Source: Liolophura sinensis (Eukaryota; Mollusca; Polyplacophora; Chitonida; Chitonidae). From it: a stretch of DNA of 64,000 nucleotides. Positions 25,829 through 59,477 of the stretch are shown piece after piece (the stretch's first letter is position 1; every line of letters begins with the position of its first letter). The position numbers and the translations under genes were made by a program. The notes below the pieces were generated by a model. That model did not search any database, was not told the DNA's origin, and saw only the letters and a program-made list of their open reading frames with translations. The stretch lies in assembly GCF_032854445.1 (NCBI RefSeq), contig NC_088301.1:13760281-13824280 (forward strand), given 5' to 3'.

Positions 25829-26696
25829 ATGTTGAAAGCAAACAATGTAAGTCTGCAGCAAAGCTACTCATAAACAAACTCCTGATAAACAGTCCAATGA
25901 TATAAACCATACCTTTATTAAAATATACAATTAGCAGCATTTCATGTTTTAAACTTCAGACTGACAGTCAAGTTAGGGACTTAAAATGGCAGCTCCGAAA
26001 TCTAGGAAGCGAATCATTTACTCAGTGCAAGCATATATAAAAGTATACATAGAGAATGGATGAATTTAGACATGCCATTCAGTCATTACCACAGCACTAA
26101 CTGTGCTAATGAGAAATCCTCCAAAAAGAGACAACATAAACTGAACTCTAGTATATATTACATATATATGGTATTAGCCTCATTGAACAAGCAGATATGC
26201 TCAATAAATACAACTTTAGTTTAGACTAGATATCACTCAGATCCAAGTATTTGACTCCGTCAACGCCAATGGAAAGTTGACTCGTGGTAACTCACATTTA
26301 CGTACATTTAATTTATGACTTGAAGCTAAATACATCTGCTACATAATATGGCAAGATATCAGGATATACTTTTAAATTTACAAGTTCTCATGTACATTAA
26401 TTTTCATAAATAAATGTAAATATTAACGTCTACTAATACATGTACAAAGATCTGGAAACAATTCGCTTTTGGTTGACATTCCTCTTTCTCAGTTTTCATA
26501 TTTCACACCAGCATTGAATTTAACTCAAAAAATTGAAGATCAGTTATATTCAGTTAGGGGGAAACTTTTCTGAAGATTTTTTTAACACAAGATCTCAGAT
26601 CTAAATTTTTAACCATAGACTTCACGCCTTCACAACTGACAGACAAGAAGGCTCAACACATACAGTGTTTATACCCCGAATGCACCAATTCTTTCA

Positions 26697-26946
26697 TTTC
26701 TTTATTTATCTGATCTGGTTCATTTATTTGTTTGATTGGTGTTTTACGCCGTATTCAAGAATATTCACTTTTAGCAATATAAGCATTATGATGGGAGGAA
26801 ACCGGGCACAGCCTGGTGAAAACAAACAACGATCTGTAGGTTGCTGGCAAACCTTCCCACGTACCACCGGAGAAGAAGCCTGCCAGAGCTGGACTTGATC
26901 TCACAGCAACTTAGCGTGCTAACTAACTGAGCCACGGATGCCCCTT
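26697..26946 (-). mobile_element. SINE family B, full length (tRNA-derived)
   Basis: On the minus strand it starts GGGGCATCCGTGGCTCAGTT (A-box-like TGGCTCAGTTAG), has a weak B box, and ends with the family tail and an A/T-rich TAAATAAA run. The duplicate is at 41883-42128. Confidence 0.8.
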
Positions 26947-27044
26947 GTCTGATTTGATGTTGTGTGCCTTACTCAAGAATTTGTCACTTTTACGTGACAA
27001 TTGGGGCCGTGATTATGAGTGAAGAAAACTGTTCGTGTAGCACA

Positions 27045-27236
27045 TTTTGCTTGATTCTGATTGATTCATGCGCCTTAAAGGTCCACTTAAGAGTTTTCAG
27101 TGAAGTCTGATTAATTTCTCACAAAAAAATACACAAATGTTGGCATGAAAAGAGTCCTTTTATGGCCTTCATGTCTTTCTGCAAATGCATTGTTACATGC
27201 CAAATATTAGGTGAAATATACCACCTTTTTTTACAC
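27045..27236. mobile_element. MITE family 2 copy
   Basis: TTGCTTGATTCTGATTGATTC, then GTTGGCATGAAAAGAGTCCT and CCAAATATTAGGTGAAATAT at the right, matching the complete element at 58711-58920. The duplicated copy at 42225-42372 lacks ~40 bp of the interior. Confidence 0.55.
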
Positions 27237-27631
27237 TAGTATTGAAAATAATAAAAATTTGAGGAATATATGTGGAAGGAATTACATGACATCATTATAT
27301 GACAATTCAGCTTAATTAAAGGCCTGTGGCAGCATTCAGCCTAATTATGTTCTAATCTGGCATAACCAGCAGCTACAGCCTGGTAAAACAAATATACGTA
27401 TCTGGCGTCTTTTTTTTTCTTCTTCTTCTCGGCATGTCTTTTAAACAAAACAACAAGAAAATCACACCCAGTTGTGTAATTACAAGACAGATTTTCTCAA
27501 ACCTCTGATGGTAATTCGTCCCTGTATTTTCTGCAGGCATACATCTGTGAAGGTAACTTTGGTATGTCATAATATCAATTTCTCCAGTCCATGCATTGTT
27601 CTGGCTGATCAGAGTTGTCTCCCTTGCTCCT

Positions 27632-30600
27632 TCACATATGAGAAGCGTAGGAGTTCGAGTTTCTGTAATGTTCTGTGCTTCTGTTTAGCTCTCTCATCTG
27701 GCTGTCCGACCGCATGCGATGCTTGCTGTCGCTGATTAAACTAGGGGGTCTGGAGCGCAGATGAGCTCGAGGGATGTGAAGGTACTGGCCAGGGCCAAAG
27801 AGCTGGGTGTGAGACTTCTCATGCTGTAAATAAACAACACTGACCATAAAGATCATGCTAGGAACACAATCATCTAAACAGTAAATTAATACAGCATGTA
27901 ATATCTGATTTAGTCTTGCTATGTCCTGAAAAAAAAAGTTCGCAAAAAAACTACTTCAGGCTTCATAAGTTCATGAAACAGAACTTTCAAATCGTGAAGT
28001 CATACCTCTCTTGCAGCAGCCATCTCGTAGATACTCTGCTGGAAATGCCGTAACGCTGTCTGCAGACATAAGCCCTCAAGGAAACAGTTCAGTACTATAA
28101 TTCCCTGCAAAAACAACATACAATTTATTTTATTTATTTTCATTTTATTTGATTGGTGTTGTACAGTGTACTCAAGAATATTTCATACTACGGCTTCCAG
28201 CATTATGGTAGGAGGAAACTGAGCAGAGCCCACAGGAAACCCACAACCATCAGCAGGTTGCTGGCAGACCTCCTACCTACCATTGGAGTGAAATCAAGCA
28301 TGAACTGGACTTGAATTCACAGCGACCAGATTGGTGAGAGGCTCATGGGTCATTGCACCCCTGGCACGCTAACCACCTCGGCCGTGAATGCCCTAAGGAT
28401 AATATAAGTCTTAGCAACAATCACATTCACATAAGAGGAGATCCATGAATAGATCAACACAAAGTAACATGAACAGATCAACAAACAGTAACATGAACAG
28501 ATCAACAAACAGTAACATAAACATATCAACAAACACAAACATGAACAGATCATGAGCTCATTACATCCATTACTTTTCAGATACCTTGACACTGCTTTCG
28601 ATGCTTGGGGTGTGACACCAGCAATGCCTTAGATTTGTACAGAGTGAGCTAAAAATCAGCATTTGTTATTTTCCTGTTGGAGCGAAAAATGGCACTGGAT
28701 GTACCAATGTGAACCAAACCATAACACACTGTACCACTCTGCCAGCTTATTAAGCCTTCGAAAATCACAGAAGTAGACTCACAAGATAAAATGCCATGAA
28801 GGATCCTAGCCCAAATCCCACAGCCACATCTGTCCAGTGTGACCTGTTCTGAGCTATCCGTGACAGTCCACAAAGCAGTGCCATCATGGCAAGAGACAGC
28901 GCCAGGAAAGGACGCAACACTTTGACAGCATGTGTGCGGATTGCTCCATGAAGGTATATCTGGATTAAGCATGAAAATATGTCGGAGATGAAGATATATT
29001 TATTTTGAAAGAAATGTTACATTTTCACCAAAAAATGGTGACAATATTTTAAATTTGTCTCGGGGAAAAACTATAGCATATATTACTTTTAAGTTTGGAA
29101 ACAGGATTATAGTGTTTAACTCAAGTTTTGTTGCTCATGGGGAGTGGACCTCCCTGTACCTATATTACAGGCTTCCTTGTACAATATACTGACACCAGAA
29201 TTGGATAGCCAATGACAAAACATATAATACATGTATTACATAATTTCACTTACTGATTAAGTTAGGCAGCATGAGAAATAATCACGACAAAATACATGTG
29301 TGGTAATAAATGGCCTAATATCTGGCCCATGAAAATTGCAAGTTTAGAGGCCAATTAATTATTATAATATATTACATTTGGTGCTGAAATTTAGATTGTT
29401 GATTACAATTTCACCTTACCTGCACAACAAACCTCAAAACACCTTTTTATGATCAACACAACTCGCAGAATCAGGTAACGTGCAACTTAATCATGTGCGA
29501 TATTTTTTGGTGATTTAAGATGTGTGTACACTTACAGCTGTGAATACTGCTGAATATGAGGTCAGTGCTGAGTGCATGGAAGGGAAGGACAGTCTGAAAT
29601 GAAGACACAGTTCACATTAGATTAGAAATTACAAAATTATTCTTTTTTTTTGGCTATTTAGTTACAGCCTCTTACATGCAGTTCTGGAAAGAAAGAATAA
29701 ATTTAAAAGTGGGTTGTTTGTACACATACACACTCAGCCTACACAGGACTCCCCTAGATAATAGGTACTTGTACTTAAATATATGTGTGACCAGCTACCA
29801 ATTATCACACTGTGGGTATGTCATATGTATGCGACCAGGTACCAATTATCACACTGTGGGTATGTCGTGGGTATGTCATATGTATGTGACCAGGTACCAA
29901 TTATTAAACTGAAGGTGTGTCATATATGTGTGACCAGGTTCCAATTATCAAACTGCGGGTATGTCATATATGTGTGACTAGGCACCAATTATCACACTGT
30001 GGGTATGTCACATGTGTGATCAGATACCAATTATCAAATTGTGGGTATGTCATATGTGTGTGACCAGGTAACAATTATCACCCTGTGGGTATGTCACATG
30101 TGACTAGGTACCAATTATCACAATGTGGGTATGTCATATATGTGACTAGGTACCAATTATCTAACTGTGGGTATGTCACATATGTGACTAGGTACCAATT
30201 ATCACACTGTGGGTATGTCACATATGTGACCAGGTACCAATTATCAAACTGTGGGTATGTCACATATGTGACTAGGTACCAATTATCACACTGTGGGTAT
30301 GTCACATGTGACCAGGTACCAATTATCAAACTGTGGGTATGTCACATATGTGACCAGGTACCAATTATCACACTGTGGGTACGTCACATATGTGACCAGG
30401 TACCAATTATCAAACTGTGGGTATGTCACATATGTGACTAGGTACCAATTATCAAACTGTGGGTATGTCAGATATGTGTGACCAGATATCGATTATCACA
30501 CTGTATGGGAAATTTTCAAATAAATTGGGAGAGGGTGGCCAAAAAAAGGTATACAGGGCAAGGAGGGACTGCTTTTGGCTTCTCACAGGGCAATTCTTTA

Positions 30601-33600
30601 ACATAACACATACAGGTGAAGATCAAAGATGAACATGTATGTTTTAGGATAAGAATTTAACACCGGAAAAGCAACAGACACTGAAATCTGTGAACAACAG
30701 AAAAATGTTACATCTATCCCCAGCCATGGCCAATGCTAACTGAACATCAGGAAATGTCACCTTCACAAGACACACAGAAGAGAGAAAGGTACAAAATGAT
30801 CTGCACACCGCATATATACAAGCCTTGTGCATTTTAACTTTTTCACACAATATAGATTTTGTAAAGCTTCAACAACAATGTGATATTTTTGGCGTTGCAG
30901 TGTATGTAGAGTATTTGCATGTCAAACTTATGTAACATGACCCAGTTGTTCAGAAGTGTATTAGGAGTGAAGCCCAGTATTAACTTAAGTCTGGACTAAA
31001 GTCCCCTTAGGTTTGCACTGGGACTAATATAACTGTTATATTATCCCCAGGTTTGTATTAGGCCACGACATGTAATAAGGTTTAAGCCTGGCTTAACTTT
31101 TAATACACTTTTGAACAACTGACCTCAGGTATTAATGGAGAAAAATTTGTTCCCAACTTGTACTTTTTTAGGCAAATCACATCAGTGAACTAATATTTAC
31201 TTAAATGCAGGCTGGTACATTTGGAATCTCTGACTTCATAATTACATCAGGATGATTGATGTGTATTTGACTTCATTGGGGTGATTGATGTGTATTTGAC
31301 TTCATTGGGATGATTGATGTGTATTTGACTTCACTGAGATGATCCATGTGTATTTGACTTCATTGAGATGATTCATGTGTATTTGACTTCATTGAGATGA
31401 TTCATGTGTATTTGACTTCATTGGGATGATTCATGTGTATTTGACTTCATTGGGATGATTGATGTGTATTTGACTTCACTGAGATGATTCATGTGTATTT
31501 GAAACATACCTAAATGTTTAATATATGCATTTATTTCATTGGTAGTTTACACATTGGTTGAGAACGAGAGTTTATTTAATTATTTAATCTGACATAGATG
31601 TCTTTTTTAGGGTTATATGTAATTACCTTCACTCGTACCATGGTGCTAAAATAAAAAACTGAAGGAAGCAAATCGGACAGAACCGAAATCTTTCAAGAAC
31701 AATTAATTCTCAAAACACACTCTGAAACAATAAGTATGATTGACACAATGTCAATAAGAGTGAGTGAGTCAATTAGTGAGTGCTTGAGGTTTAACGTCGT
31801 TTTTAACAATTTTTCAGTCATAATACGGCAAAGGAGTTCTTAGAGCGTATGTAATGTGCCTCCTTGTTGCAGGACGGATTTCTACGGCTCTTTTATCTAG
31901 TGCTGTTTCACTGAGATGACTTACCGAAAGCAAGTAAGCTGCACTGCCCGAGCCATTACACTCATACAGGTCAACCAGTCGTTGCACTATCCCCTTCATG
32001 CTGAGCGCCAAGCGAGGTAGTTACAACTTGCGCTTTTTTAAGATCTTAGGTGTGACCTGACCAAGGATCTACCGCCCTCGAAGTGGGTGCTCTACCAACT
32101 GTGTTATAGGGGTCGATCAATGTCACCAAGAAATGATGAGTATGTATATGTAATTATACATTTTTCCTGTTAGTACGTGTTATAGTGATTTTGTTAGGGC
32201 TGCATCTGCCAAGAGATCAAAGGGTAATTCCTCCTGTCCTGGGGGTACATAGCTGCTAGTCTCTACACCGTTATATACAAGTATGGTAACAATTAGAATG
32301 ACATGAAAAGACTGTTCATAATACACTCTAATTATCTCTGCTCACAAATGCATCTGATATCAAGTCACACATACCCACAGTGTGCCTATTGCTATCTGGC
32401 CACACATACCCAAAGTGTGCCTACTGCTATCTAGTCACACATACCCACAGTGTGCCTATTGCTATCTGGCCACACATACCCAAAGTGTGCCTACTTCTAT
32501 CAGGCCACACATACCCACAGTGTGCCTATTGCTATATGGTCACACATACCCACAGTGTGCCTACTGCTATCTAGTCACACATACCCACAGTGTGCCTATT
32601 GCTACCTGGCCACACATACCCACAGTGTGCCTACTGCTATCAGGCCACACATACCCACAGTGTGCCTATTGCTATACGGTCACACATACCCACAGTGTGC
32701 CTACTGCTATCTAGTCACACATACCCACAGTGTGCCTACTGCTTTCAGGCCACACATACCCACAATGTGCCTGCTGCTATATGGTCACACATATCCACAG
32801 TGTGCCTACTGCTATCTGGTCACACATACCCACAGTGTGCCTACTGCTATCTGGTCACACATGCCCACAGTGTGCCTACTGCTATCTGGTCACACATATC
32901 CACAGTGTGCCTACTGCTATCTGGTCACACATACCCCCGGTGTGCTTACTGCTACCTGGTCACACATATCCACAGTATGCCTACTGCTATCTGGTCACAC
33001 ATACCCCCAGTGTGGCTACAGCTATCTAGTCACAAATACCTAAAGTGTGCCTACTGCTATATGGTCACACATACCCACAGTGTGCCTACTGCTATATATT
33101 CACACATACCCACAGTGTGCCTACTGCTATATAGTCACACATACCCCCAGTGTGCTTACTGCTCTCTGGCCATCATGTGATAACTGGTATCTGGTCATAT
33201 ATACCCACAGTGTGAGACTTGATATCTGTTCATACATACCCACAGTGTGATAACTGGTATCGGGTCACACATACCCACAGTGTGGTAACTGGTATCTAGT
33301 CACACATACCCATACTGTGATACTTGGTAGCTAGTTACACATACCCACAGTGTGATCACTGGTATCTGGTCATGTAGACCCACAGTGTGATACTTGGTAT
33401 CTGGTCACACGTACCCACAGTGTGATCATTGGTATCTGGTCATACATACCCTCAGTGTGATAAATGGTATCTGGTCACACATACCCACAGTGTGATCACT
33501 GGTATCTGGTCATGTAGACCCACATTGTGATACTTGGTATATGGTAACACACATCCACAGTGTGATACTTGGTATCTGGTCATACATATGCACAGTGTGA

Positions 33601-36600
33601 TACTTGGTATACAGTTACACACACCCACAGTGTGATACTTGGTATCTGGTCATACATACACACAGTGTGATTCTTAGTATCTGCTTACACATACAAACAG
33701 CATGATAACTGCTATAACTGGTATCTGGTCCCACATACCCACAGTGTGATAACTGGTATTGGGTCACACATACCCACAGTATGATAATTGGCATCTGATC
33801 ACACATACCCACAGTGTGACAATTGGTATCCAAATACACATTATCATATCCACTGAGTGATAATTGGTATCTGGTCACACATAATCATACCCACAGTGTG
33901 ATAACTGGTATCTGGTCACATATAATCATACCCACAGTGTGATAACTGGTATCCGGTCACACACATCCACAGTGTGATAATTGGTATCTGATAACACATA
34001 ATTATTCCCACAGTGTGGTAGCCGGTCACACATGCCCACAGTGTGATAACTGGTATCCAATCACACATAATCACACCCACAGTGTGATAGTTGGTATCTG
34101 GTCACACATATCCACAGTATGATAACTGGAATCTGATGACACATAATCATACCCACAGTGTTATAATTAATATGTGGTCACACATGTTTACACTCTCATG
34201 ACAGTATAACATTTCCACAATGCTTATAACTAAGCCTTACCTGGCATCTCTTAAGGCCCAGTAGTCCGTGGTGGAGCATAGTTCTTCATCCCCAGACAGG
34301 TTCTGTAGGGCACATGCTGTAAGGTTCACCTGACACACCTCCAGGAAATTAGGTCGTAATATACCAGTCATAAACTTTGTCACATCCACGAATATCAACA
34401 GAGTGAAAGCCCCAAACAGAAAAACTCCTGAAGAAAAGAAGAAATAAATGATTTTGTATCCACAAATATCACTATTAATTTCTTTGTGAAAACTCAAATA
34501 AGAAATGTGGCAAAATATCTTTTTAGTCTTGCAGGTGTCTTTTTAGTCTGGCAGGTGGATAAAACTGGGTACATCCTAAGGAAGAGTAAAGGAACTGGGC
34601 AATGATGTGATCTCTAACTAAGAGTTACCCTAATTCCGAAAAATTTCACATGAGAAAGAGCATCATTCACTGTAATTTATGCACACTTAATTTCAATTTG
34701 ATTCTGGAGAAAAAATGACATTTGTTGCATTGGCCAAATGCAAAACTTCATAAAAAGTATAACTTTCTCAGTCAACAGAGAATATTGCCTTCGAAGTATG
34801 CTTGAATAAACATCTTGCCTCTTCATAATGACAGATTGTAAAGTAATGTAATGCTCATGTTTTAATGCTAGAAAGAGAGTTGTAATCTAAACACTGGTGA
34901 ATGTTATTGTTACTATGGTTAAAAGATTGGCCCAACCCCTTTTCACATACTATTTCTATAAATGAATCATGTCTTCCTACTGGAACAATCCTTGTGAAAA
35001 CCTCTTTCAGACTTTCAGTTAAGACCCTTGAGTTTCAAACTCTCTGGAAATGAGTATCTTGCTGAAAACTTCTCATTTACACAGTATAAAAGTATTCCAC
35101 ACTAAAACAGTGTGTTATACAATGTGGAAAAATAGCTTGACACCTACACATGTATTCCGCATCAACCAAGGAGTTTTGCAGGTGTGGAAAGAAGTGGGGC
35201 TCAATTTACACAGCACCTCTCTGTGAGAAACAGGCCAATCCCGACCACCACTACACTGACGAGTAAAAACTTCTCAGAAGGTGTGTGGCCGCACCACCAA
35301 CAAACCAGACCTTAGTTTAGTTGTTAAATTCCCCACCTTTGTGTGGGCCTGTTTTTAATGCCCGTTATGTTTACCCTCAGCTCAGGGTTTGAATAGGGTG
35401 GGTACCGCCGGCAAAGTCGGCATGCAGGAAGTTAAGCCATATGACCTTTGGCCTTACCGATGAAGCGAACCAGTCTCCGTATGACTTGAGGAATCTGGCA
35501 TTGTTTGCACAAAGCCCGCACCACTTTCTGCGGATCACTGCTGAAGGCCCAGACTCCTATCTCCCCGATTGAGATCTAAATTAATTCAACAACAAGCAAA
35601 TCCTCAATTGATTCCCTCCATATGTGCTAAATCAAACAGCCATCTTTGATCATATAAACAGGCAAGCCTTTAGATAACACACCTCTCTTAATATAAAATA
35701 ACAATTGATGGCACTGAAATTACTTTATCATCCTTAAAACAATGTCACTGAAATTGCTTGTGCCACCCCTAGGGAAATGGCCATGGACAAATTCCTCATC
35801 TGGTATGTTTGATATCAAACAATATACGACAAAAAAACCACACAAACACACAAAAAATAAAAAAACACACCGCTCACAACACATTTTTACATGATTATAG
35901 ATTACCATTTGCTATATGTACCATGCTGTCCTCAACATACATGCTTAATATACAATGATGTCATGAATGAAGTCAACAAATTCCTTTTCAATTTAGCCCC
36001 ATCCAGGCTATCTACCATTGTTTACCTTTTATTGACTCAACAGCAAAGCTGAATGCTGCTGAGGTAGGCTGAGTGTTCCATCCACACTACAAATCAGACA
36101 GGTCAACATTGTTCAACATTGATGGTCATGTGTTGAACTGTGTTGACCTGTGTTTTTTTAAACCAAACTTTTGATAAATTGGAGGGAAATTTCTGTCTTT
36201 CTCTCCAATGCATGAAACATAATGACAAGCAGCCGGAAGAATTGTGTCGTGGGTTTATTGGCTGTGTTTATTATCATGGCCGTACTCCTGTATCAACGGA
36301 AGAATCGTGTCGGGGTTTATTGACTGTGTTTATTATCATGGCTGTACTCCTGTATCAACGGAAGAATCGTGTCGTGGGTTTATTGGCTGTGTTTATTATC
36401 ATGGCTGTACTCCTGTATCAACGGAAGAATCGTGTCGTGGGTTTATTGGCTGTGTTCATTATCATTATTGCCATACTCCTGTATCAACGAAACTGACCCA
36501 TCGTGAGACCAGTTTCTCCCTTTGACTTTTGGCGCCGACATTTTGCCCAAGTCACGTGCCTCAAGACGGTTATTTCTACATGCCCGCTGATTGGCTACAT

Positions 36601-39600
36601 TCATTCAACTTGATTCAACTCGCTGACAAAAAATACACATACACATTTCCGATTCAACGAAGTTGGATGGTGTTGAGTGTTGTTGAACAGAGTTGAAGAA
36701 CCTGTCCAGATTACTCAACACGGCTAAACTTGTTGACTCAACCTCAAGTTGATTCTTGTTGAGTCAACAAAAGCTAAGTGATGTTGGGTAATCTGGATTG
36801 GGGCTTTACAGATTATTTCAAACAAACCAGATTAAGAATTTTCCTACGGATAGTAGAGAAATTTCATTGACACTGTCCCAAGGATGGTAGAGAACAAAAT
36901 ACTCATCTATGTTTGTTTTGTTTTTTTCATCTATATAATGGTAGCTAGCAATTCTTTGCAATTTAAAGGAAAACAACACAAGAATATTACATTTAGAGGA
37001 AGTATTAAAACTGTCTCACCACAAATGGAGGGACACAGATACTGAGGGCATAGATAGCCTCAATTGGTACATGGGCCCTGAAGGCAAACTCTGAGAGGAA
37101 ATCGCTACTGGAGCTCTGAGAGATCTGTGGGTCAACACAGGAGAAATTCTGCTTCCTCATCGGGAAAATGTCTGTCCATCTGCAGGAGAAATCCACAGAA
37201 ATGGTGAATGTGTAAATTTAACTTATGTACACTGGATGGAATTAAACCATTTTCTGAATACAGCATACATTGAACATATCCACTTTTTTATTTCCCTGTT
37301 GTTTGGTACCTTACTCAAGAAGTTTTCTCTTAATATACAGTGGAGGTGCATTAAAAAGTAGAGAAAACTGGAGTGCCCTGGGAAAACCCCTGACCATTGG
37401 CAAATTACTGACAAACTTTCCTAGATGTGACGTATAGATATGTGCACCATTTTGGTGGAGGAAAAGTTGTCCTGCACAAAAGGCCAAAAAAGTAATGGTT
37501 ATCATTTATTGTCACCAAGCCCACAAACAGTGAGACCATAATTGTACCAAATAAAACTCTTCTCTTAAAATATGACACAATTTCATCGTTCAGACTCAAT
37601 AATAAAAGAGTGTCATGATAACAGTCACATTTATATCATCCTTAAATGAATAAAATAAGGATTTTAATGAAGGAAAATGCCCTTAAAATTTGCTCACATT
37701 TTCATGCTGAATAATCATGCGCATGGACACACAGACAAACAGACACAAATGCACAAGTCCACATCATATAGGACGAGTGGATGCACATGTCACAGACACT
37801 GCCTGGACACGGCAATATGACAATAAATGTGCCAGTACAGGAAATCAATAAACACCCTGTTTTTCTCTTAGAGCCTCTTCTGTTTAAATCTTAGCCTTTA
37901 TAACATCCTTTCAGGCCTATAAAGTGCCAAGAAAAACTCCATATTTGGCAGCCATGTGATGAATGTATGTTTATGTTTGGCCCAGAGACAAATAGCCAAA
38001 TCGGCTTTCTGAGCCTGGGTTGTTGGGAGAGGTTTAAGATGTGAGGAAACGAGCTCCCCCTACCCTCCACCCTCCAAAACATGGGCCATTATCACCAAAA
38101 CCCTCCCTCACATTGGGGCTGAGACTTTTTAATTCTTCACTGGGCCAGGTAAGTGCCAAAAAACCGCCAGGTAAAAGCAAATAAAAGAGTTCCACGTAAC
38201 AGGAAATTTCCTCGAAAAATCACATCCTCAGGTGACGAAAAGGCCAGATGCTGCCATGTACTTATAACATGTTGAGCATTAGGAGATTGAGCGTTAGGAG
38301 AAACCTGGCATACACACAGTCCACAAGTTAGAGGGGTTAGAAAATGACATCTACAAAACAAACAAAAAAAAAAGATGTTTCCAGCCAGCTTACAGGTTGT
38401 CAAAAAAAACCACAAAACTAAATCATACAGAACTCAAGATTTAATTCTGACACTGAACAAGAGAAACTAAAATCAGAGACATACAGAACTCAAGATTTAA
38501 TTCTGACACTGAACAAGAGAAACTAAATCAGAGACATACAGAACTCAAGATTTAATTCTGACACTGAACAAGAGAAACTAAATTAGAGGCATACACATCA
38601 ACAGAAACACATACATGTACATTGTACATTCCCATCCCCGCACGTAAAACAAGGAAATACTAGACCGCTACTGGATAAACCAGACTGCCACAGGATAAAC
38701 CAGACCGCCACTGGATAAACCAGACTGCTACTGGATAAACCAGACCGCCACTGGATAAACCAGACTGCTACTGGAAAGCCAGATTACTACTGGATAAACC
38801 ACACCGCCACTGGGTAAACCAGATTACTACTAGATAAACCACACCACCACTGGGTAAACCAGACTGCTACTGGATAAACTAGACCGCGACTGAAAAAGCC
38901 AGACGGCTACTGGCTAAGCCACACTGCTTGTGGAAAAAAACAGACCACCCCTGGAAAAGCCAGGCCACTACTTGGAAAAGCCAGCCCACTACTGGAAAAG
39001 CCAGACCACTACTGGAAAAGCCAGATTGCTACTAGGAAAGCCAGACCGCCACTGGATAAACCAGACTGCTACTGGAAAGCCAGATTACTACTGGATAAAC
39101 CAGACCGCCACTGGATAAACCAGACCACCACAGGATAAACCAGACCGCCACAGTGTAAACCAGACTGCCACTGGCTAAGCCAGACCGCTAATGGAAAAAA
39201 ACAGACCACTAATGGAAAAGCCAGGCCACTACTTGGAAAAGCCAGCCCACTAATGGAAAAGCCAGACCACTACTGGGAAAGCCAGACCACTACTCGGAAA
39301 GCCAGACCACTACTGGCTAAGCCAGACCGCTAGTGGAAAAAAACAGACCACTACTGGAAAAGCCAGACCACTACTTGGAAAAGCCAGCCCACTACTGGAA
39401 AAGCCAGACCACTACTGGAAAAGCCAGACCGCTACTGGCTAAGCCAGACCGCTTGTGGAAAAAAACAGACCACCCCTGGAAAAGCCAGGACACTATTTGG
39501 AAAAGCCAGCCCACTACTGGAAAACCCAGACCACTACTGGGAAAGCCAGACCACCACTGGATAAACCAGACTGCCACTGGATAAACCAGACCGCCACTGA

Positions 39601-41412: not shown

Positions 41413-41612
41413 NNNNNNNNNNNNNNNNNNNNNNNNNNNNNNNNNNNNNNNNNNNNNNNNNNNNNNNNNNNNNNNNNNNNNNNNNNNNNNNNNNNNNNNN
41501 NNNNNNNNNNNNNNNNNNNNNNNNNNNNNNNNNNNNNNNNNNNNNNNNNNNNNNNNNNNNNNNNNNNNNNNNNNNNNNNNNNNNNNNNNNNNNNNNNNNN
41601 NNNNNNNNNNNN
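41413..41612. other. Assembly gap of exactly 200 Ns
   Basis: A run of 200 undetermined bases. The round number suggests a placeholder of unknown true size. Sequence left of it matches up to 57960, and sequence right of it matches from 26412, so the two flanks overlap instead of adjoining. Confidence 0.99.
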
Positions 41613-42128: not shown

Positions 42129-42224
42129 TTGTCTGATTTGATGTTGTGTGCCTTACTCAAGAATTTGTCACTTTTACGTGACAATTGGGGCATGATTATG
42201 AGTGAAGAAAACTGTTCGTGTAGC

Positions 42225-42372
42225 ACATTTTGCATGATTCTGATTGATTCATGCACCTTAAAGGTCTCACAAAAAAATACACAAGTGTTGGCATGAAAAG
42301 AGTCCTTTTATGCCTTTCATGTCTTTCTCCAAATGCATTGTTACATGCCAAATATTAGGTGAAATATACCAC
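42225..42372. mobile_element. MITE family 2 copy, with interior deletion
   Basis: Counterpart of 27045-27236; about 40 bases containing CACTTAAGAGTTTTCAGTG are absent here. Confidence 0.5.
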
Positions 42373-42780
42373 TTTTTTTTTTACACTAGTATTTAAAATA
42401 ATAAAAATTTGAGGAATATATGTGGAAGGAATTACATGAACACCATTATATGACAATTCAGCTTAATTAAAGGCCTGTGGCAGCATTCAGCCTAATTATG
42501 TTCTAATCTGGCCTAACCAGCAGCTACAGCCTGGTAAAACAAAATATACATATCTGGCGTCTTTTTTTTCTTCTTCTTCTCGGCATGTTTTTTAAACAAC
42601 AAAAAGAAAATCACACCCAGTTGTGTAATTACAAGACAGATTTTCTCAAACTCTGATGGTAATTCGTACCTGTATTTTCTGCAGGCATACATCTGTGAAG
42701 GTAACTTTGGTATGTCCATAATATCAATTTCTCCAGTCCATGCATTGTTCTGGCTGATCAGAGTTGTCTCCCTTGCTCCT

Positions 42781-45700: not shown

Positions 45701-48700
45701 ACAGCCTCTTACATGCAGTTCCGGAAAGAAAGAATAAATTTAAAAGTGGGTTGTTTGTACTCATACACACTCAGCCTACACAGGACTCCCCTAGGATAAT
45801 AGGTGCATGTACTTAAATGTATGTGTGAATACCAATTATCACACTGTGGGTATGTCATCCATGTATATGTGTGACCCAGCTACCAATTATCACAATGTAG
45901 GTATGTCATATGTGTGTGACCAGGTACCAATTATCACACTGTGGGAATGTCATATGTATGTGACCAGGTACCAACTATTAAACTGAGGGGTGTGTCATAT
46001 ATGTGCGACCAGGTTCCAATACAAACTGTGGGTATGTCATATATGTGTGACTAGGCCACCAATTATCACACTGTGGGTATGGTCACATATGTGTGACCAG
46101 GTAACAATTATCACCCTGTGGGTATGTCACATATGTGACTAGGTACCAATTATCACAATGTGGGTATGTCATATATGTGACTAGGTACCAATGGTCAAAC
46201 TGTGGGTACGTCACAATATGTGTGAACCAGATACCAATGATCAAACTGTGGGTATGTCACATATGTGACCAGGTACCAATTATCACACTGTGGGTACGTC
46301 ACATGTGACCAGGTACCATTATCAAAACTGTGGGTATGTCACATATGTGACTAGATACCAATTATCAAACTGTGGGTACGTCACATAATGTGTGACCAGA
46401 TACCAATGAATCAAACTGTGGGTATGTCACATATGTGACCAGGTACCAATTATCACACTGGTGGGTATGTCACATGTGACCAGGGTACCAATTATCAAAC
46501 TGTGGGTATGTCACATATGTGACTAGGTACCAATTATCAAACTGTGGGTATGTCACATATGTGTGACAAGATATCAATTATCAAACTGTGGGTATGTCAC
46601 ATGTATGACTATGTACCAATTACAACAATGAGGGTGTGTCACATATGTGTGACAAGATACCAATTGTCACACTGTGGATATGTCACATATGTGTGACCAG
46701 ATATCAATTATCACACTGTATGGGAAATTTTCAAATAAATTGGGAGAGGGTGGCCAAAAAAAGGTATACAGGGCAAGGAGGGACTGCTTTTGGCTTCTCA
46801 CAGGGCAATCCTTTAACATAACACATACAGGTGAAGATCAAAGATGAACATGTATGTTTTAGGATAAGAATTTAACACCGGAAAAGCAACAGACACTGAA
46901 ATCTGTGAACAACAGAAAAATGTTACATCTATCCCCAGCCATGGCCAATGCTAACTGAACATCAGGAAATGTCACCTTCACAAGACACACAGAAGAGAGA
47001 AAGGTACAAAATGATCTGCACACCTCATATATACAAGCCTTGTGCATTTTAACTTTTTCACACAATATAGATTTTGTAAAGCTTCAACAACAATGTGATA
47101 TTTTTGGCGTTGCAGTGTATGTAGAGTATTTGCATGTCAAACTTATGTAACATGACCCAGTTGTTCAGAAGTGTATTAGGAGTGAAGCCCAGTATTAACT
47201 TAAGTCTGGACTAAAGTCCCCTTAGGTTTGCACTGGGACTAATATAACTGTTATATTATCCCCAGGTTTGTATTAGGCCACGACATGTAATAAGGTTTAA
47301 GCCTGGCTTAACTTTTAATACACTTTTGAACAACTGACCTCAGGTATTAATGGAGAAAAATTTGTTCCCAACTTGTACTTTTTTAGGCAAATCACATCCG
47401 TGAACTAATATTTACTTAAATGCAGGCTGGTACATTTGGTATCTCTGACTTCATAATTACATCGGGATGATTGATGTGTATTTGACTTCATTGGGATGAT
47501 TGATGTGTATTTGGCTTCATTGGGATGATTGATGTGTATTTGACTTCACTGGATGATTCATGTGTATTTGACTTCATTGGGATGATTCATGTGTATTTGA
47601 CTTCATTGGGATGATTCATGTGTATTTGACTTCATTGGGATGATTCATGTGTATTTGACTTCATTGGGATGATTCATGTGCATATTTGAAACATACCTAA
47701 ATGTTTAATACATGCATTTATTTCATTGGTAGTTTACACAGTGGTTGAGAACGAGAGTTTATTTAATTATTGAATCTGACATAGATGTCTTCTCTAGGGT
47801 TATATGTAATTATCATTACTCGTATAATGGTGCTAAAATAAAAAAACGCAGGAAGCAAATCGGACAGAACTGAAATCTTTCAGGAACAATTAATTCTCAA
47901 AACACACTCTGAAACAATAAGTATGATTGACACAATGTCAATAAGAGTGAGTGAGTCAATTAGTGAGTGCTTGAGGTTTAACGTCGTACTTAACAATTTT
48001 TCAGTCATAATACGACAAAGGAGTTCTTAGAGTGTATGTAATGTGCCTCCTCGTTGCAGGACGGATTTCTACGGCTCTTTTATCTAGTGCTGTTTCACTG
48101 AGATGACTTACCGAAAGCAAGTAAGCTGCACTGCCCGAGCCATTACACTCATACAGGTCAACCAGTCGTTGCACTATCCCCTTCATGCTGAGCGCCAAGC
48201 GAGGTAGTTACAACTTGCGCTTTTTAAGATCTTAGGTGTGACCTGACCAAGGATCTACCGCCCCCGAAGTGGATGCTCTACCAACTGCGTTATATGGGTC
48301 GATCAATGTCACCAAGAAATGATGAGTATGTATATGTAATTATACATATAAGTTTTCCTGTTAGTACGTGTTACAGTGATTTTGTTAGGGCTGCATCTGC
48401 CAAGAGATCAAAGGGTAATTCCTTCTGTCCTGGGGGTACATAGCTGCTAGTCTCTACACCGTTATATACAAGTATGGTAACAATTAGAATGACATGAAAA
48501 GACTGTTCATAATACACTCTAATTATCCCTGCTCACAAATGCATCTGATATCAAGTCACATATACCCAGTGTGCCTATTGCTATCTGGCCACACATACCC
48601 AAAGTGTGCCTACTGCTATCTAGTCATACATACCCACAGTGTGCCTATTGCTACCTGGCCACACATACCCACAGTGTGCCTATTGCTATCTGGCCACACA

Positions 48701-51700
48701 TACCCAAAGTGTGCCTACTGCTATCTAGTCACACATACCCACAGTGTGCCTATTGCTACCTGGCCGCACATACCCACAGTGTGCCTACTTCTATCAGGCC
48801 ACACATACCCACAGTGTGCCTATTGCTATGTGGTCACACATACCCACAGTGTGCCTACTGCTATCTAGTCACACATACCCACAGTGTGCCTATTGCTACC
48901 TATCCACACATACCAACAGTGTGCCTACTTCTATCAGGCCACACATACCCACAGTGTACCTATTGCTATATGTTCACACATACCCACAGTGTGCCTAATG
49001 CTATCTAGTCACACATACCCACAGTGTGCCTACTGCTTTCAGGCCACACACACCCACAATGTGCCTACTGCTATATGGTCACACATATCCAAAGTGTGCC
49101 TACTGCTATCTAGTCACACATACCCACAGTGTGCCTATTGCTACCTGGTCACACATACCCACAGTGTGCCCACTGCTATCAGGCCACACATACCCACAGT
49201 GTGGCTACAGCTATCTAGTCACAAATACCTAAAGTGTGCCTACTGCTATCTGGTCACACATACCCACAGTGTGCCTACTGCTATATAGTCACACATACCC
49301 ACAGTGTGCTTACTGCTCTCTTGCCACCATGTGATAACTTGTATCTGGTCATACATACCCACAGTGTGATAACTGGTATCTGGTCATATATACCCACAGT
49401 GTGAGACTTGATATCTGTTCATACATACCCACAGTGTGATAACTGGTATCTGGTCACACATACCCACAGTGTGGTAACTGGTATCTAGTCACACATACCC
49501 ATACTGTGATACTTGGTAGCTAGTTACACATACCACAGTGTGATCACTGGTATCTGGTCATGTAGACCTACAGTGTGATACTTGGTATCTGGTCACACAT
49601 ACCCACAGTGTGATACTTGGTATCTGGTTACACACACCCACAGTGTGATCATTGGTATCTGGTCATACATACCCACAGTGTGATCATTGGTATCTGGTCA
49701 TACATACCCACAGTGTGATAAATGGTATCTGGTCACACATAGCCACAGTGTGATAACTGGTATCTGGTCACACATACCCATACTGTAATACTTGGTATAT
49801 GGTAACACACACCCACAGTGTGATACTTGGTATCTGGTCATATATACACACAGTGTGATCACTGGTATCTGGCTATGTAAACCCACAGTGTGATACTTGG
49901 TATCTGGTCACACATACCCACAGTCTGATACTTGGTATCTGGTTACACATACCCACAGTGTGATCATTGGTATCTGGTCACATATACCCACATTGTGATA
50001 CTTGGTATATGGTAACACACACCCACAGTGTGATACTTGGTATCTGGTCATACATATGCACAGTGTGATACTTGGTATACGGTTACACACACCCACAGTG
50101 TGATACTTGGTATCTGGTCATACATACACACAGTGTGATTCTTAGTATCTGCTTACACATACCCACAGCATGATAACTGCTATAACTGGTATCTGGTCAC
50201 ACATACCCACAGTGTGATAATTGGCATCTGATCACACATACCCACAGTGTGACAATTGGTATCCAAATACACATTCTCATATCCACTGTGTGATAATTGG
50301 TATCTGGTCACACATAATCATACCCACAGTGTGATAACTGGTATCTGGTCACACATAATCATACCCACAGTGTGATAACTGGTATCCGGTCACACATAAT
50401 CATACCCACAGTGTGATAACTGGTATCCGGTCACACATATCCACAGTGTGATAATTGGTATCTGATGACACATAATTATTCCCACAGTGTGGTAGCCGGT
50501 ATCTGGTCACACATGCCCACAGTGTGATAACTGGTATCCAATCACACATAATCATACCCACAGTGTGATAGTTGGTATCTGGTCACACATATCCACAGTA
50601 TGATAACTGGAATCTGATGACACATAATCATACCCACAGTGTTATAATTAATATGTGGTCACACATGTTTACACTCTCATGACAGTATAACATTTCCACA
50701 ATGCTTATAACTAAGCCTTACCTGGCATCTCTTAAGGCCCAGTAGTCCGTGGTGGAGCATAGTTCCTCATCCCCAGACAGGTTCTGTAGGGCACATGCTG
50801 TCAGGTTCACCTGACACACCTCCAGGAAATTAGGTCGTAATATCCCAGTCATAAACTTTGTCACATCCACGAATATCAACAGAGTGAAAGCCCCAAACAG
50901 AAAAACTCCTGAACAAAAGAAGAAATAAATGATTTTATATCCACAAATATCACTATTAATTTCTTTGTGAAAACTCAAATAAGAAATGTGGCAAAATATC
51001 TTTTTAGTCTTGCAGGTGTCTTTTTAATCTGGCAGGTGGATAAAACTGGGTACATCCTAAGGAAGAGTAAAGGAACTGGGCAATGATGTGATCTCTAATT
51101 AAGAGTTACCCTAATTCCGAAAAATTTCGCATGTGAAAGAGCATCATTCACTGTAATTTATGCACACTTAATTTCAATTTGATTTTGGAGAAAAAATGAC
51201 ATTTGTTGCATTGGCCAAATGCAAAACTTCATAAAAAGTATAACCTTCTCAGTCAACAGAGAATATTGCCTTCAAAATATGCTTGAATAAACATCTTGCC
51301 TCTTCATAATGACAGATTGTAAAGTAGTGTAATGCTCATGTTTTAATGCTAAAAAGAGAGTTGTAAGCTAAACACTGGTGAATGTTATTGTTACTATGGT
51401 TAAAAGATTGGCCCAACCCCTTTTCACATACTATTTCTATAAATGAATCAATGTCTTCCTACTGGAACAATCCTTGTGAAAACCGCTTTCAGACTTTCAG
51501 TTAAGACCCTTGAGTTTCAAACTCTCTGGAAATGAGTATCTTGCTGAAAACTTCTCATTTACACAGTATAAAAGCATTCCACACTAAAACAGTGTGTTAT
51601 ACAATGTGGAAAAATAGCTTGACACCTACACATATAGCCCGCATCAACCAAGGAGTTTTGCAGGTGTGGAAAGAAGTGGGGCTCAATTTACACAGCACCT

Positions 51701-54700
51701 CTTTGTGAGAAACAGGCCAATCCCGACCACCACTACACTGACGAGTAAAAACTTCTCAGAAGGTGTGTGGCCGCACCACCAACAAACCAGACCTTAGTTT
51801 AGTTGTTAAATTCCCCACCTTTGTGTGGGCCTGTTTTTAATGCCCGTTATGTTTACCCTCAGCTCAGGGTTTGAATAGGGTGGGTACCGCCGGCAAAGTC
51901 GGCATGCAGGAAGTTAAGCCATATGACCTTTGGCCTTACCGATGAAGCGAACCAGTCTCCGTATGACTTGAGGAATCTGGCATTGTTTGCACAAAGCCCG
52001 CACCACTTTCTGCGGATCACTGCTGAAGGCCCAGACTCCTATCTCCCCGATTGAGATCTAAATTAATTCAACAACAAGCAAATCCTCAATTGATTCCCTC
52101 CATATGTGCTAAATCAAACAGCCATCTTTGATCATATAAACAGGCAAGCCTTTAGATAACACACCTCTCTTAATATAAAATAACAATTGATGGCATTGAA
52201 ATTACTTTATCATCCTTACAACAATGTCACTGAAATTGCTTGTGCCACCCCTAGGGAAATGGCCATGGACAAATTCCTCATCTGGTATGTTTGATATCAA
52301 ACAATATACAACAAAAAAAACACACAAACACACAAAAAATAAAAAAACACACCGCTCACAACACATTTTTACATGATTATAGATTACCATTTGCTATATG
52401 TACCATGCTGTCCTCAACATACATGCTTAATATACAATGATGTCATGAATGAAGTCAACAAATTCCTTTTCAATTTAGCCCCATCCAGGCTATCTAACAT
52501 TGTTTACCTTTTGTTGACTCAACAGCAAAGCTGAATGCTGCTGAGGTAGGCTGAGTGTTCCATCCACACTACAAATCAGACAGGTCAACAATGTCCAACA
52601 TTGATGGTCATGTGTTGAACTGTGTTGACCTGTGTTTTTTTAAACCAAACTTTTGATAAATTGGAGGGAAATTTCCGTCTTTCTCTCCAATGCATGAAAC
52701 ATAATGACAAGCAGCCGGAAGAATTGTGTCGTGGGTTTATTGCCTGTGTTTATTATCATGGCCGTACTCCTGTATCAACGGAAGAATCGTGTCGTGGGTT
52801 TATTGGCTGTGTTCATTATCATTATTGCCATACTCCTGTATCAACGAAACTGACCCATCGTGAGACCAGTTTCTCCCTTTGACTTTTGGCGCCGACATTT
52901 TGCCCAAGTCACGTGCCTCAAGACGGTCCATGTTATTTCTACATGCCCGCTGATTGGCTACATTCATTCAACTTGATTCAACTCGCTGACAAAAAATACA
53001 CATACACATTTCTGATTCAACGAAGTTGGATGGTGTTGAGTGTTGTTGAACGGAGTTGAAGAACCTGTCCAGATTACTCAACACGGCTAAACTTGTTGAC
53101 TCAACCTCAAGTTGATTCTTGTTGAGTCAACAAAAGCTAAGTGATGTTGGGTAATCTGGATAGGGGCTTTACAGATTATTTCAAACAAACCAGATTAAGA
53201 ATTTTCCTACGGATAGTAGAGAAATTTCATTGACACTGTCCCAAGGATGGTAGAGAACGAAAATACTCATCTATGTTTGTTTTGTTTTTTTCATCTATAT
53301 AATGGTAACTAGCAATTCTTTGAAATTTAAAGGAAAACAACACAAGAATATTACATTTAGAGGAGGTATTAAAACTGTCTCACCACAAATGGAGGGACAC
53401 AGATACTGAGGGCATAGATGGCCTCAATTGGTACATGGGCCCTGAAGGCAAACTCTGAGAGGAAATCGCTACTGGAGCTCTGAGAGATCTGTGGGTCAAC
53501 ACAGGAGAAATTCTGCTTCCTCATCGGGAAAATGTCTGTCCATCTGCAGGAGAAATCCACAGAAATGGTGAATGTGTAAATTTAACTTATGTACACTGGA
53601 TGGAATTAAACCATTTTCTGAATACAGCATACATTGAACATATCCACTTTTTTATTTCCCTGTTGTTTGGTACCATACTCCAGAAGTTTTCTCTTAATAT
53701 ACAGTGGAGGTGCATTTAAAAAGTAGAGAAAACTGGAGTGCCTGGGAAAACCCCTGACCTTTGGCAAATTACTGACAAACTTTCCTAGATGTGACGTATA
53801 GATATGTACACCATTTTGGTGGAGGAAAAGTTGTCTGCACAAAAGGCCAAAAAAGTAATGGCTATCATTTATTGTCACCAAGCCCACAAACAGTGAGACC
53901 ATAATTGTACCAAATAAAACTCTTCTCTTAAAATATGACACAATTTCATCGTTCAGACTCAATAATAAAAGAGTGTCATGATAACAGTCACATTTATATC
54001 ATCCTTAAATGAATAAAATAAGGATTTTAATGAAGGAAAATGCCCTTAAAATTTGCTCACGTTTTCATGCTGAATAATCATGCGCATGGACACACAGACA
54101 AACAGACACAAATGCACAAGTCCACATCATATAGGACGAGTGGATGCACATGTCACAGACACTGCCTGGACACGGCAATATGACAATAAATGTGCCAGTA
54201 CGGGAAATCAATAAACACCTTGTTTTTCTCTTAGAGCCTCTTCTGTTTAAATCTTAGCCTTTATAACATCCTTTCAGGCCTATAAAGTGCCAAGAAAAAC
54301 TCCATATTTGGCAGCCATGTGATGAATGTATGTTTATGTTTGGCCCAGAGACAAATAGCCAAATCGGCTTTCTGAGCCTGGGTTGTTGGGAGAGGTTTAA
54401 GATGTGAGGAAACGAGCTCCCCCAACCCTCCACCCTCCAAAACATGGGCCATTATCACCAAAACCCTCCCTCACATTGGGCTGAGACTTTTTAATTCTTC
54501 ACTGGGCCAGGTAAGTGCCAAAAAACCGCCAGGTAAAAGCAAATAAAAGAGTTCCATGTAACAGGAAATTTCCTCGAAAAATCACATCCTCAGGTGACGA
54601 AAAGGCCAGATGCTGCCATGTACTTATAACATGTTGAGCATTAGGAGATTGAGCGTTAGGAGAAACCTGGCATACACACAGTCCACAAGTTAGAGGGGTT

Positions 54701-57700
54701 AGAAAATGACATCTACAAAACAAACAAAAAAAAAACATGTTTCCAGCCAGCTTACAGGTTGTCAAAAAAACCCACAAAACTAAATCATACAGAACTCAAG
54801 ATTTAATTCGGACACTGAACAAGACAAACTAAATCAGAGACATACAGAACTCAAGATTTAATTCTGACACTGAACAAGACAAACTAAATCAGAGACATAC
54901 AGAACTCAAGATTTAATTCTAACACTGAACAAGAGAAACTAAATCAGAGACATACAGAACTCAAGATTTAATTCTAACACTGAACAAGAGAAACTAAATC
55001 AGAGACATACAGAACTCAAGATTTAATTCTGACACTGAACAAGAGAAACTAAATCAGAGACATACAGAACTCAAGATTTAATTCTGACACTGAACAAGAG
55101 AAACTAAAATCAGAGACATACAGAACTCAAGATTTAATTCTGACACTGAACAAGAGAAACTAAATCAGAGACATACAGAACTCAAGATTTAATTCTCACA
55201 CTGAACAAGAGAAACTAAATTAGAGGCATACACATCAACAGAAACACATACATGTACATTGTACATTCCCATCCCCGCACGTAAAATAAGGAAATACCAG
55301 ACCGCTACTGGATAAACCAGACCGCCACAGGATAAACCAGACTGCCACTGGATAAACCAGACTGCTACTGGATAAGCCAGACCGCCACTGGATAAACTAG
55401 ACTGCTACTGGAAAGCCAGATTACTACTGGATAAACCACACCGCCACTGGGTAAACCAGATTACTACTGGATAAACCACACCACCACTGGGTAAACCAGA
55501 CTGCTACTGGATAAACTAGACCGCGACTGAAAAAGCCAGACGGCTACTGGCTAAGCCACACTGCTTGTGGAAAAAACAGACCACCCCTGCAAAAGCCAGG
55601 CCACTACTTGGAAAAGCCAGCCCACTACTGGAAAAGCCAGATCACTACTGGAAAAGCCAGACTGCTACTAGGAAAGCCAGACCGCCACTGGATAAACCAG
55701 ACTGCTACTGGAAAGCCAGATTACTACTGGATAAACCAGACCGCCACTGGATAAACCAGACCACCACAGGATAAACCAGACTGCTACTGCATAAACCAGA
55801 CCACCACAGGATAAACCAGACCACCAAAGGATAAACCAGACTGCCACTGGATAAACCAGACCGCCACAGGATAAACCAGACCGCCACAGTGTAAACCAGA
55901 CTGCCACTGGCTAAGCCAGACCACTACTGGAAAAGCCAGACCACTACTTGGAAAAGCCAGCCCACTACTGGAAAAGCCAGACCACTACTGGAAAAGCCAG
56001 ACCGCTACTGGCTAAGCCAGACCGCTTGTGGAAAAAAACAGACCACCCCTGGAAAAGCCAGGACACTACTTGGAAAAGCCAGCCCACTACTGGGAAAGCC
56101 AGACCGCCACTGGATAAACCAGACTGCCACTGGATAAACCAGACCGCCACTGGATAAGCCAGACCACCATTGGATAAACCAGACCACCACTGGATAAACC
56201 AGACTGCTACTGCATAAACCAGACCACCACAGGATAAACCAGACCACCAAAGGATAAACCAGACCACCACAGGATAAACCAGACTGCCACTGGATAAACC
56301 AGACTGCTACTGGCTAAGCCAGACCACTAGTGGAAAAAAACAGACCACTACTGGAAAAGCCAGGCCACTACTTGGAAAAGCCAGACCACTACTGGGAAAG
56401 CCAGACCACTACTGGGAAAGCCAGACCACTACTGGGAAAGCCAGACAACAACTGGGGAAAAAACAGACCACTACTTGGAAAAGCCAGACCACTGTTGGAA
56501 AAGCCAGACCATTACTGGAAAAGCCAGATCACTACTTGGAAAAACCAGCCCACTACTGGAAAAGCCAGACCACTGTTGGAAAAGCCAGACCACAACTTGG
56601 AAAAGCCAGCCCACTACTGGAAAAGCCAGACCACTACTGGAAAAGCCAGACCACTACTGGAAAAAAACAGACCACTACAGGAAATGACAGACCACTACTT
56701 GGAAAAGCCAGACCACCAATGGAAAAAACAGACCACTACTGGAGAAAAGCTATCCCAACACCAAAATTGAGACCGACACTGACATTTTCCCCACATCAAT
56801 ACACTATCTCACCTACCTCTACCACCACAGGCTAAAAACATTATTTAGGGCCTTTAGCATTATATTAGAAAATAAATGACGACTTCTTATGTTCATAGAA
56901 TGTACTTTTCCAACAGTTCCACGGATAACCAAAAATTGCCAAAAATTACTAACTATATGGAAACACGTAGACAAAAAGGCAATCTGCAGCTTTCAATTAA
57001 GTTTTTGAGCCATTTTTTTGCTCAAGTTACATACTGAGCACACAAAAAAAAACATGAGCTGTACATCTACATGAGTGCAAATAAACTCATGTTTTGCTTC
57101 TAACATTAGGACATCCACATCACTGAATACATTTGTAGGAAGGCCAAGGCAATGCAGTACGCATGATTCAGATAAAATATTACAGGCTACAAAGATACAT
57201 ACTAGAACATGCTGGAATCTGCATGTTTCAGAACAGACCAATTACATCACATCAGCAAGGGTTATGATGTGGGTACAGGTAATGTTTAAATGTAAACACG
57301 GCTGGTGAGATGGGACAGGAATGACAGGAAGTGAAAGCAGGTAAGACAGCTAAGGCTAACAGGTGCACATCATGTCTTAATCCCGGTCTACCTGATAGAT
57401 CCAATATTTGTTGTCTAGAGCAGGGGTGAGCACTAGGGTTTGAGCACAACAAAAGATAAATGAAAGTTAGGTTCTCAATGGATGTTGTGGGGGTGGGGGT
57501 GGGTCTGTGGTTAAGGTAGTGCTGCAGCACAATGACTCACCAATGTGGTTGCTGTGAGTTCAAGTCAAGCTAACCCGGGCTTCTTCTACAGTCATATGTT
57601 TGAAGGTCTTTCCACAACCTTCAATGGTTGTGGCATTCAACTTCCAAAGCACTTTTTTTCAGTGGAATTTATGCATGCAATTATAATGAAAATGATGCCA

Positions 57701-58103
57701 TTTTTGTGTCACTAAAGACTGTAAAAAAAACTATGCACATTATTTCTTTACAACGCACAGTCCTCTCAGAATGCTCCAGAACACTGGTTGTAGGGGTGAT
57801 TGAAAAGGCCAAGGAATTAGGGTAAAAGCACAGAGGCTGATTTTTTTATTGAGTCAGTCGGGTGACAAAACTATTTTAATTTACGCCTTACCTGATATAA
57901 TATTCAAGCACGATGACAGCCGACAAGATGAGCAGTTCCAGGGTAAAGGTGACTGCAATGAAGACGTTAGGACGTTCTCGTTTGGAACTGACAGATGAGC
58001 TCTGGTCCAGATCCAGGTATGTCCTACCATTCTCCTCCATCTCCTTGGTCAAGTCTAAGCGGTCAAGCGTCTCCCCCTGGATGTGGTTAGTGTACAAGGC
58101 CAT
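42781..58103 (-). CDS. PLPPR: Phospholipid phosphatase-related protein, haplotig B; complete 5' end, frameshifts in exons 6-8
   Basis: Same gene as 27632-41412. Coding exons high to low: 57892-58103, 53384-53543, 51940-52057, 50722-50908, 45572-45629, 44817-44997, 43162-43262, 42781-42973. ATG 58103-58101 is supported by an in-frame TGA nine bases upstream (58112-58110) and by a likely 5' UTR splice acceptor (TTTCAG) ending at 58124. Exon 1 encodes a ~47-residue acidic N-terminus, then helix 1 (FIAVTFTLELLILSAVIVLE). Relative to copy 1, exon 6 has four extra single bases, exon 7 two and exon 8 one (GTCCGGACC versus GTCCGACC), so the frame is broken; splice sites are intact and substitutions are mostly silent. 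I read these as sequencing errors near the contig end, not as a pseudogene. Confidence 0.88.
43276..43552 (-). mobile_element. SINE family B (duplicate of 28125-28396)
   Basis: Same intron position and sequence as in copy 1, with small indels. Confidence 0.78.
43592..44190. repeat. 24-bp minisatellite, long allele (about 24 copies)
   Basis: Units such as AACATGAACAGATCAACAAA plus CAGT, with variants CAGACA and CACAAAC. A block of ~260 bp is repeated (compare 43713 onward with 43966 onward). On the minus strand it gives long Cys/Leu-rich open frames that are artefacts of the repeat. The following ~375 bp (44191-44566) is absent from copy 1. Confidence 0.9.
45830..46722 (+). repeat. 42-bp minisatellite, orientation 1 (duplicate)
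   Basis: Counterpart of 29793-30512, longer by several units and containing many one-base insertions (for example GGGTATGGTCAC, CAGGGTACC, CTGGTGGG) that are not seen in copy 1. Confidence 0.92.
47157..47338. mobile_element. MITE family 3 (duplicate of 30942-31124)
   Basis: Practically identical to the copy 1 element, in the same position. Confidence 0.75.
47464..47690. repeat. 29-bp minisatellite (duplicate)
   Basis: Counterpart of 31250-31503, ~8 copies, slightly shorter. Confidence 0.9.
47951..48301 (-). mobile_element. SINE family A (duplicate of 31764-32118)
   Basis: Same site and orientation as in copy 1, with a handful of substitutions. Confidence 0.8.
48553..50665 (-). repeat. 35-bp minisatellite, orientation 2 (duplicate, longer)
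   Basis: Counterpart of 32361-34185. The GTGCCTACTGC subfamily (left) is shorter and the GTGATAACTGG subfamily (right, from ~49330) is longer than in copy 1. It ends ~55 bp before exon 4. Confidence 0.93.
51107..51329. mobile_element. MITE family 1 (duplicate of 34626-34848)
   Basis: Same site as in copy 1. Here the left arm reads TTTCGCATGTGAAAGAGCAT, closer to the family consensus. Confidence 0.6.
52725..52852. repeat. 63-bp minisatellite, 2 copies (short allele)
   Basis: Counterpart of 36238-36498, with two fewer units. Confidence 0.88.
53655..53798 (-). mobile_element. Old SINE family B copy (duplicate of 37295-37432)
   Basis: Same position between exon 2 and the first coding intron; similarly diverged. 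Confidence 0.5.
54786..55225. repeat. 55-bp minisatellite, 8 copies (long allele)
   Basis: Counterpart of 38425-38600, which has 3 copies. Confidence 0.92.
55294..56760. repeat. 20/21-bp minisatellite (duplicate)
   Basis: Counterpart of 38660-40205, ~80 bp shorter, with units lost or gained in blocks. Confidence 0.93.
57588..57824. mobile_element. MITE family 1b copy, inverted (duplicate of 41038-41274)
   Basis: Ends GGCCAAGGAATTAGGGTA. It lies in the intron just downstream of exon 1. Confidence 0.6.
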
Positions 58104-59465: not shown

Positions 59466-59477
59466 ACTATAAAGGGT

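Follow-up and report, generated by a model that had tools for sequence, protein, structure and literature searches.

Two copies of a PLPPR-like gene on either side of an assembly gap in Liolophura sinensis are probably two haplotypes of one locus

The stretch of the chiton Liolophura sinensis analysed here, called the window throughout, comprises 64,000 nucleotides (C7:13760281-13824280, C7 being contig NC_088301.1) of a 609-Mb assembly with 632 contigs. It contains two successive copies of a phospholipid-phosphatase-like (PLPPR-like) gene, one on each side of a run of Ns. From the comparison of the two sequences we consider it highly likely that they form a heterotype false duplication, in which two haplotypes of one locus have been laid end to end. 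The duplication is almost certainly a known kind of assembly error and no real gene duplication, and under this reading the locus very probably holds one PLPPR-like gene rather than two.

The gap, exactly 200 bases long and the single N run in the window, separates the two copies on one scaffold (Table 1). Copy 1 (15,001 bases) and copy 2 (16,348 bases) are on the same strand and colinear by blastn; a greedy chain joins them in five colinear plus-strand blocks, and the parts outside this chain are covered by additional colinear blastn matches. The main blocks have an E-value of 0.0, which excludes chance as the source of the match. Position 26412 pairs with 41613, the first base past the gap, and 41412, the last base before it, pairs with 57960. 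The homology is flush with both gap edges and stops only where the sequence stops; no boundary of a duplicated unit is visible in the alignment, and any junction would fall inside the gap. A preliminary description of this DNA had already reported two copies of about 15 kb across a 200-N gap, the first ending at the gap inside exon 1 and the second beginning directly past it at the homologue of 26412. All of this was borne out, and the whole exon is present only at 57888-58109.

A global alignment of the two copies, tandem arrays excluded, shows substitutions at 176 of 9967 aligned bases (1.77%), and the arrays themselves are of unequal length. At the 24-bp array copy 2 is longer by ~0.86 kb, of which ~380 bp is non-array sequence missing from copy 1. 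Because a dispersed repeat spans the end of these ~380 bp in copy 2 (its matches reach query position 412, while the shared sequence starts at 380), the alignment suggests that copy 1 carries a deletion. Substitutions and array-length differences of this kind would be ordinary for two haplotypes of an outbred animal.

The gene lies on the minus strand and has six coding exons; over the 834 coding bases that the copies share, we found nine synonymous and no nonsynonymous substitutions. About a quarter of random coding changes are synonymous, as a round figure, and on that basis nine out of nine has a probability of ~4e-6. Both copies thus derive from a functional gene on which purifying selection acted. 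One of the nine changes, CTG to CTT in exon 5, has an insertion nearby and could be an error in its own right, in which case the count becomes eight of eight. The only coding indels are five one-base insertions, all of them in copy 2 and in exons 5 and 6, which are the nearest to the start of its contig. The frameshifts in copy 2 had been anticipated in the preliminary description, as had the damage to be expected in gene models (one gene without its N-terminus and one frameshifted), and both agree with the sequence. We considered copy 2 as a decaying pseudogene and rejected this, the five frameshifting bases standing among substitutions that are all synonymous. Judged from this pattern, consensus error is a more likely cause of the frameshifts than decay.

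Short indels, defined as those of three bases or fewer outside arrays, crowd at the contig ends. The start of the right contig has 35 in 3169 aligned bases (11.0 per kb) and the end of the left contig eight in 1202 (6.7 per kb), whereas the middle of the overlap has seven in 5596 (1.3 per kb). The ends differ from the middle both in indels (Fisher p = 1e-9) and in the ratio of indels to substitutions (p = 2e-5). Near its own contig end, copy 2 has the extra base in 22 of the 35 indels, and copy 1 likewise has it in seven of the eight near its own end (p = 0.017 for the contrast), although the split of 22 versus 13 is weak by itself. A second aligner, applied to seven non-array blocks, agreed with this: the blocks at the start of the right contig had 10.2 and 17.5 short indels per kb, copy 2 carrying the extra base in 24 of 40, the four in the middle had between 0 and 2.6, and the one closing the left contig had 6.7, with the extra base in copy 1 for seven of eight. 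Substitutions in the middle amount to 1.47% (82/5596) with the first aligner and 1.45% (81/5569, four middle blocks summed) with the second. We interpret the crowding as error of the consensus where contigs end with thin coverage, and it fits 41412 and 41613 being true ends of contigs. Part of the divergence between the copies, including the frameshifts of copy 2, would then probably be contig-end error on top of allelic difference.

Elsewhere in the assembly we found no further copy of the gene. All 19 candidates were scored for the joined 329-amino-acid protein, and its 13 matches at an E-value of 0.001 or less all fall within the window: the whole exon 1 once, its copy 1 stump once, and exons 2 to 6 once per copy, where the match to copy 2's exon 6 is split in two. 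The part of the first exon beyond 57960 is also found once in the assembly. The flanks behave alike, as probe 21000-24200 matched only itself (E 1e-100, 5/5 candidates scored), and so did probe 57950-61300 (E 1e-200, 40 of 3794 candidates scored). The search also covered three stretches taken from copy 1, with the best 40 candidates scored for each, which is not an exhaustive count; among these candidates there was no third close copy or haplotig, and only the two copies in the window reached 98% or more. The other matches of the three stretches look like dispersed repeats (68-89% identity, with those above 86% short; 71-78%; 78-86%). A search for the PAP2 family gave four other places (C7 twice, C11 and C13), but it missed the exon in the window itself and was therefore left out of the copy counting, for which the protein search was used.

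The strongest alternative, which we nevertheless hold to be improbable, is a real and very young tandem duplication of the PLPPR-like gene in this minisatellite-rich region. The unit would be longer than 15 kb with its junction in the gap, and the remaining sequence of each unit, with the 5' part of copy 1's first coding exon in it, would lie hidden in the unsized gap; both copies would still be under purifying selection while their arrays had already become very unequal in length. The preliminary description had argued that a real tandem duplication would not have both its break points exactly at a contig gap. This is a strong argument without being decisive, as flush ends are equally expected if the gap conceals the remainders of two longer units. 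The coding pattern and a divergence of 1.5-1.8% also fit two young functional paralogues. However, this alternative requires an additional event, and a gap that happens to conceal both boundaries of the unit. The flank probes each have a single match, yet the missing parts would in any case be in the gap. According to what Ko et al. (PMC9516828) report on such marks, the gap property was not found for true duplications.

Slightly less probable again is a homotype false duplication, in which one haplotype is present twice, the contig ends overlap by about one read length and most differences stem from errors of sequencing or consensus. The concentration of short indels at both contig ends is what this would produce, and contig-end overlap with error-like indels near the ends is indeed shared with the homotype cases described in the literature (PMC8081667, PMC9516828). 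Unlike in those descriptions, the middle of the overlap here has codon-respecting substitutions and array-length differences: 1.47% of its bases are substituted although short indels number just 1.3 per kb, random errors would not spare the protein as the nine synonymous changes do, and neither the unequal array sizes nor the ~380 bp of non-array sequence missing from copy 1 suits a single haplotype. A tandem duplication on just one of the two haplotypes is very improbable, as it has no positive evidence and requires a real duplication plus an assembly break, and nothing here calls for such a combination.

Several points weigh against the false duplication of two haplotypes that we favour. The zones compared above (right contig's start, middle, left contig's end) were drawn after the list of indels had been seen. 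The substitution rate is uneven, falling from 2.65% where the right contig begins, through 1.47% in the middle, to 0.83% where the left contig stops, so the contig ends have no common substitution pattern; with the second aligner, single middle blocks span 0.54% to 3.18%. Copy 1 is the one with the extra base in 13 of the 35 short indels near the start of the right contig (16 of 40 with the second aligner), and the indels there are therefore not simply insertion errors of copy 2. The nine coding changes over ~208 synonymous sites (a quarter of 834, estimated by hand) come to ~4%, against 1.8% outside arrays, a count too small to carry much. We also sought a yardstick of heterozygosity by cutting 3-kb pieces from nine small contigs (L001-L009) and searching two of them; none was obtained, as both contigs searched are satellite and not haplotigs. 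The case for two haplotypes is drawn from the assembly sequence itself, and a real tandem duplication of recent date, with its junction in the gap, would likewise be compatible with the geometry, the low divergence and the purifying selection. The copies differ as alleles would (1.47% substitutions in the middle, few indels, nine of nine coding changes synonymous), and young paralogues would differ in the same way.

Two haplotypes of one locus, as the preliminary description proposed, remain the best reading, supported by the geometry, the divergence, the coding pattern, the single matches of the flank probes and the copy count. From these observations we infer both the allelic status of the copies and the following history of the assembly. 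The left contig would lead out of the left flank into one of the two haplotypes and end at 41412, and the right contig would begin within the other haplotype at 41613 and continue into the right flank. With 1.5-1.8% substitutions, unequal arrays and ~380 bp missing from copy 1, the overlapping ends would have been too unlike to merge. Both would then have been missed by purging and placed in tandem by scaffolding, with a 200-N gap between them.

This arrangement has a counterpart in the Vertebrate Genomes Project, where the figure on false duplications describes a type 2 heterotype case named "flanking contigs" (Rhie et al., 2021, Extended Data Fig. 5a; PMC8081667). As in that scheme, the 5' flank with one haplotype, a gap, and the other haplotype with the 3' flank follow each other on one scaffold. 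The marks of false duplication given by Ko et al. (PMC9516828) in their account of them are half depth, a gap on the same scaffold, discordant linked reads and one-copy k-mers; the gap is the one assessed here, and it is present. Heterozygous contig overlap is also what purge_dups targets, and its description names most insects and marine animals as outbred, highly heterozygous examples in which overlaps persist (Guan et al., 2020; PMC7203741). The two primary contig ends in the window likewise overlap as between homologous chromosomes. The comparison has its limits, as the haplotype origin is here deduced from sequence, and purge_dups for its part applies a half-depth criterion as well (PMC7203741).

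Table 1. Positions of the two copies, the gap, the coding exons and the tandem arrays in the window.
Feature	Copy 1 or left contig	Copy 2 or right contig	Strand	Remarks
Copy 1, closing the left contig (haplotype A under the favoured interpretation)	26412-41412			blastn chain and global alignment
Gap of 200 N separating the contigs, 41413-41612				no other N run in the window
Copy 2, opening the right contig (haplotype B under the favoured interpretation)		41613-57960		blastn chain and global alignment
Stop-to-stop open frame with complete first coding exon		57888-58109	-	ATG is the third codon after the upstream in-frame stop
Coding exon 1, stump cut by the gap	41346-41412		-	0 differences over 66 shared coding bases
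Coding exon 2	37020-37178	53384-53542	-	1 synonymous, 0 nonsynonymous
Coding exon 3	34243-34428	50724-50909	-	3 synonymous, 0 nonsynonymous
Coding exon 4	29536-29592	45572-45628	-	1 synonymous, 0 nonsynonymous
Coding exon 5, copy 1	28783-28956		-	frame open; 3 synonymous, 0 nonsynonymous
Coding exon 5, copy 2		44817-44994	-	4 one-base insertions
Coding exon 6 with stop, copy 1	27632-27823		-	frame open; 1 synonymous, 0 nonsynonymous
Coding exon 6, copy 2		42781-42973	-	1 one-base insertion
24-bp array (in copy 2 with adjoining ~380 bp non-array)	28444-28552	43601-44566		4.5 copies vs ~24 copies
55-bp array	38424-38595	54786-55232		3.1 copies vs 8.1 copies
63-bp array	36234-36489	52716-52846		4.0 copies vs 2.0 copies
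35/41-bp array	32364-34185	48555-50666

The protein itself contains a PAP2 domain (PF01569), which scores 63.2 bits in the joined 329-amino-acid sequence against a cut-off of 27.2. Among eight single open frames submitted to Pfam, two alone exceeded the cut-off: exon 5, recognized as PAP2 with 27.6 bits (against 27.2), and the neighbouring frame at 21.8 kb (ATP synthase C). Six further open frames gave no match. The joined protein matches five solved chains, which correspond to PLPP1, 2 and 3 (best E 1.6e-20). At the position of the C3 motif, encoded by exon 5 in both copies, the PLPPR-like protein has a Ser (GLSRIAQNRSHWTD) where PLPP1 has a His (GLSRVSDYKHHWSD); across the PLPP1 chains this residue is His in 9l0i and Ala in 9l0u. 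We take the C3-motif His to be the nucleophile of PLPP, and the PLPPR-like protein lacks the His that an active PLPP has there. It retains a C1-like K...RP and the motif-2 His (SFPSMH). We take these motifs to contribute to the active site of PLPP, and judging from these residues the protein looks like a pseudo-phosphatase whose active site was lost only in part.

Next to the locus, an open frame on the plus strand (21755-22027) contains an ATP synthase C domain (PF00137, 54.3 bits); we take its product to be, probably, the 21-kDa proteolipid subunit of the V-ATPase. Long minisatellites abound in the remainder of the window as well (5313-7040, 32 bp x 54; 8358-9436, 26 bp x 41; 18276-19366, 92 bp x 12). 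Within copy 1, 35984-36833 and 41078-41280 belong to two dispersed repeat families with many relatives on C1-C13, mostly at 73-86% among the best 40 scored.

As for the small contigs, L001 matches L002-L006 with a period of ~549 bp, mostly at 89-95% identity among the matches listed. At least six of the nine sampled (C60, C120, C200, C300, C400, C500) carry related satellite copies of this period, and many small contigs of the assembly may consist of it. L007-L009 were outside this comparison; L009 begins with 1501 bases of N. That L003 (C200) is absent from its own 14 matches shows that candidate lists for repeats are incomplete. Tandem Repeats Finder (TRF) was run with periods up to 500, below the ~549 bp of the satellite, and its output of "no tandem repeat" was not used.

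The finding is a matter of annotation only: a gene builder would probably call two PLPPR-like genes at this locus and so report a false gene gain. Frameshifts close to gaps should be viewed with caution, as they may be consensus error. The combination of indels at contig ends with coding differences that are all synonymous provides a cheap hint, obtained without reads, that a pair of gene copies is suspect.

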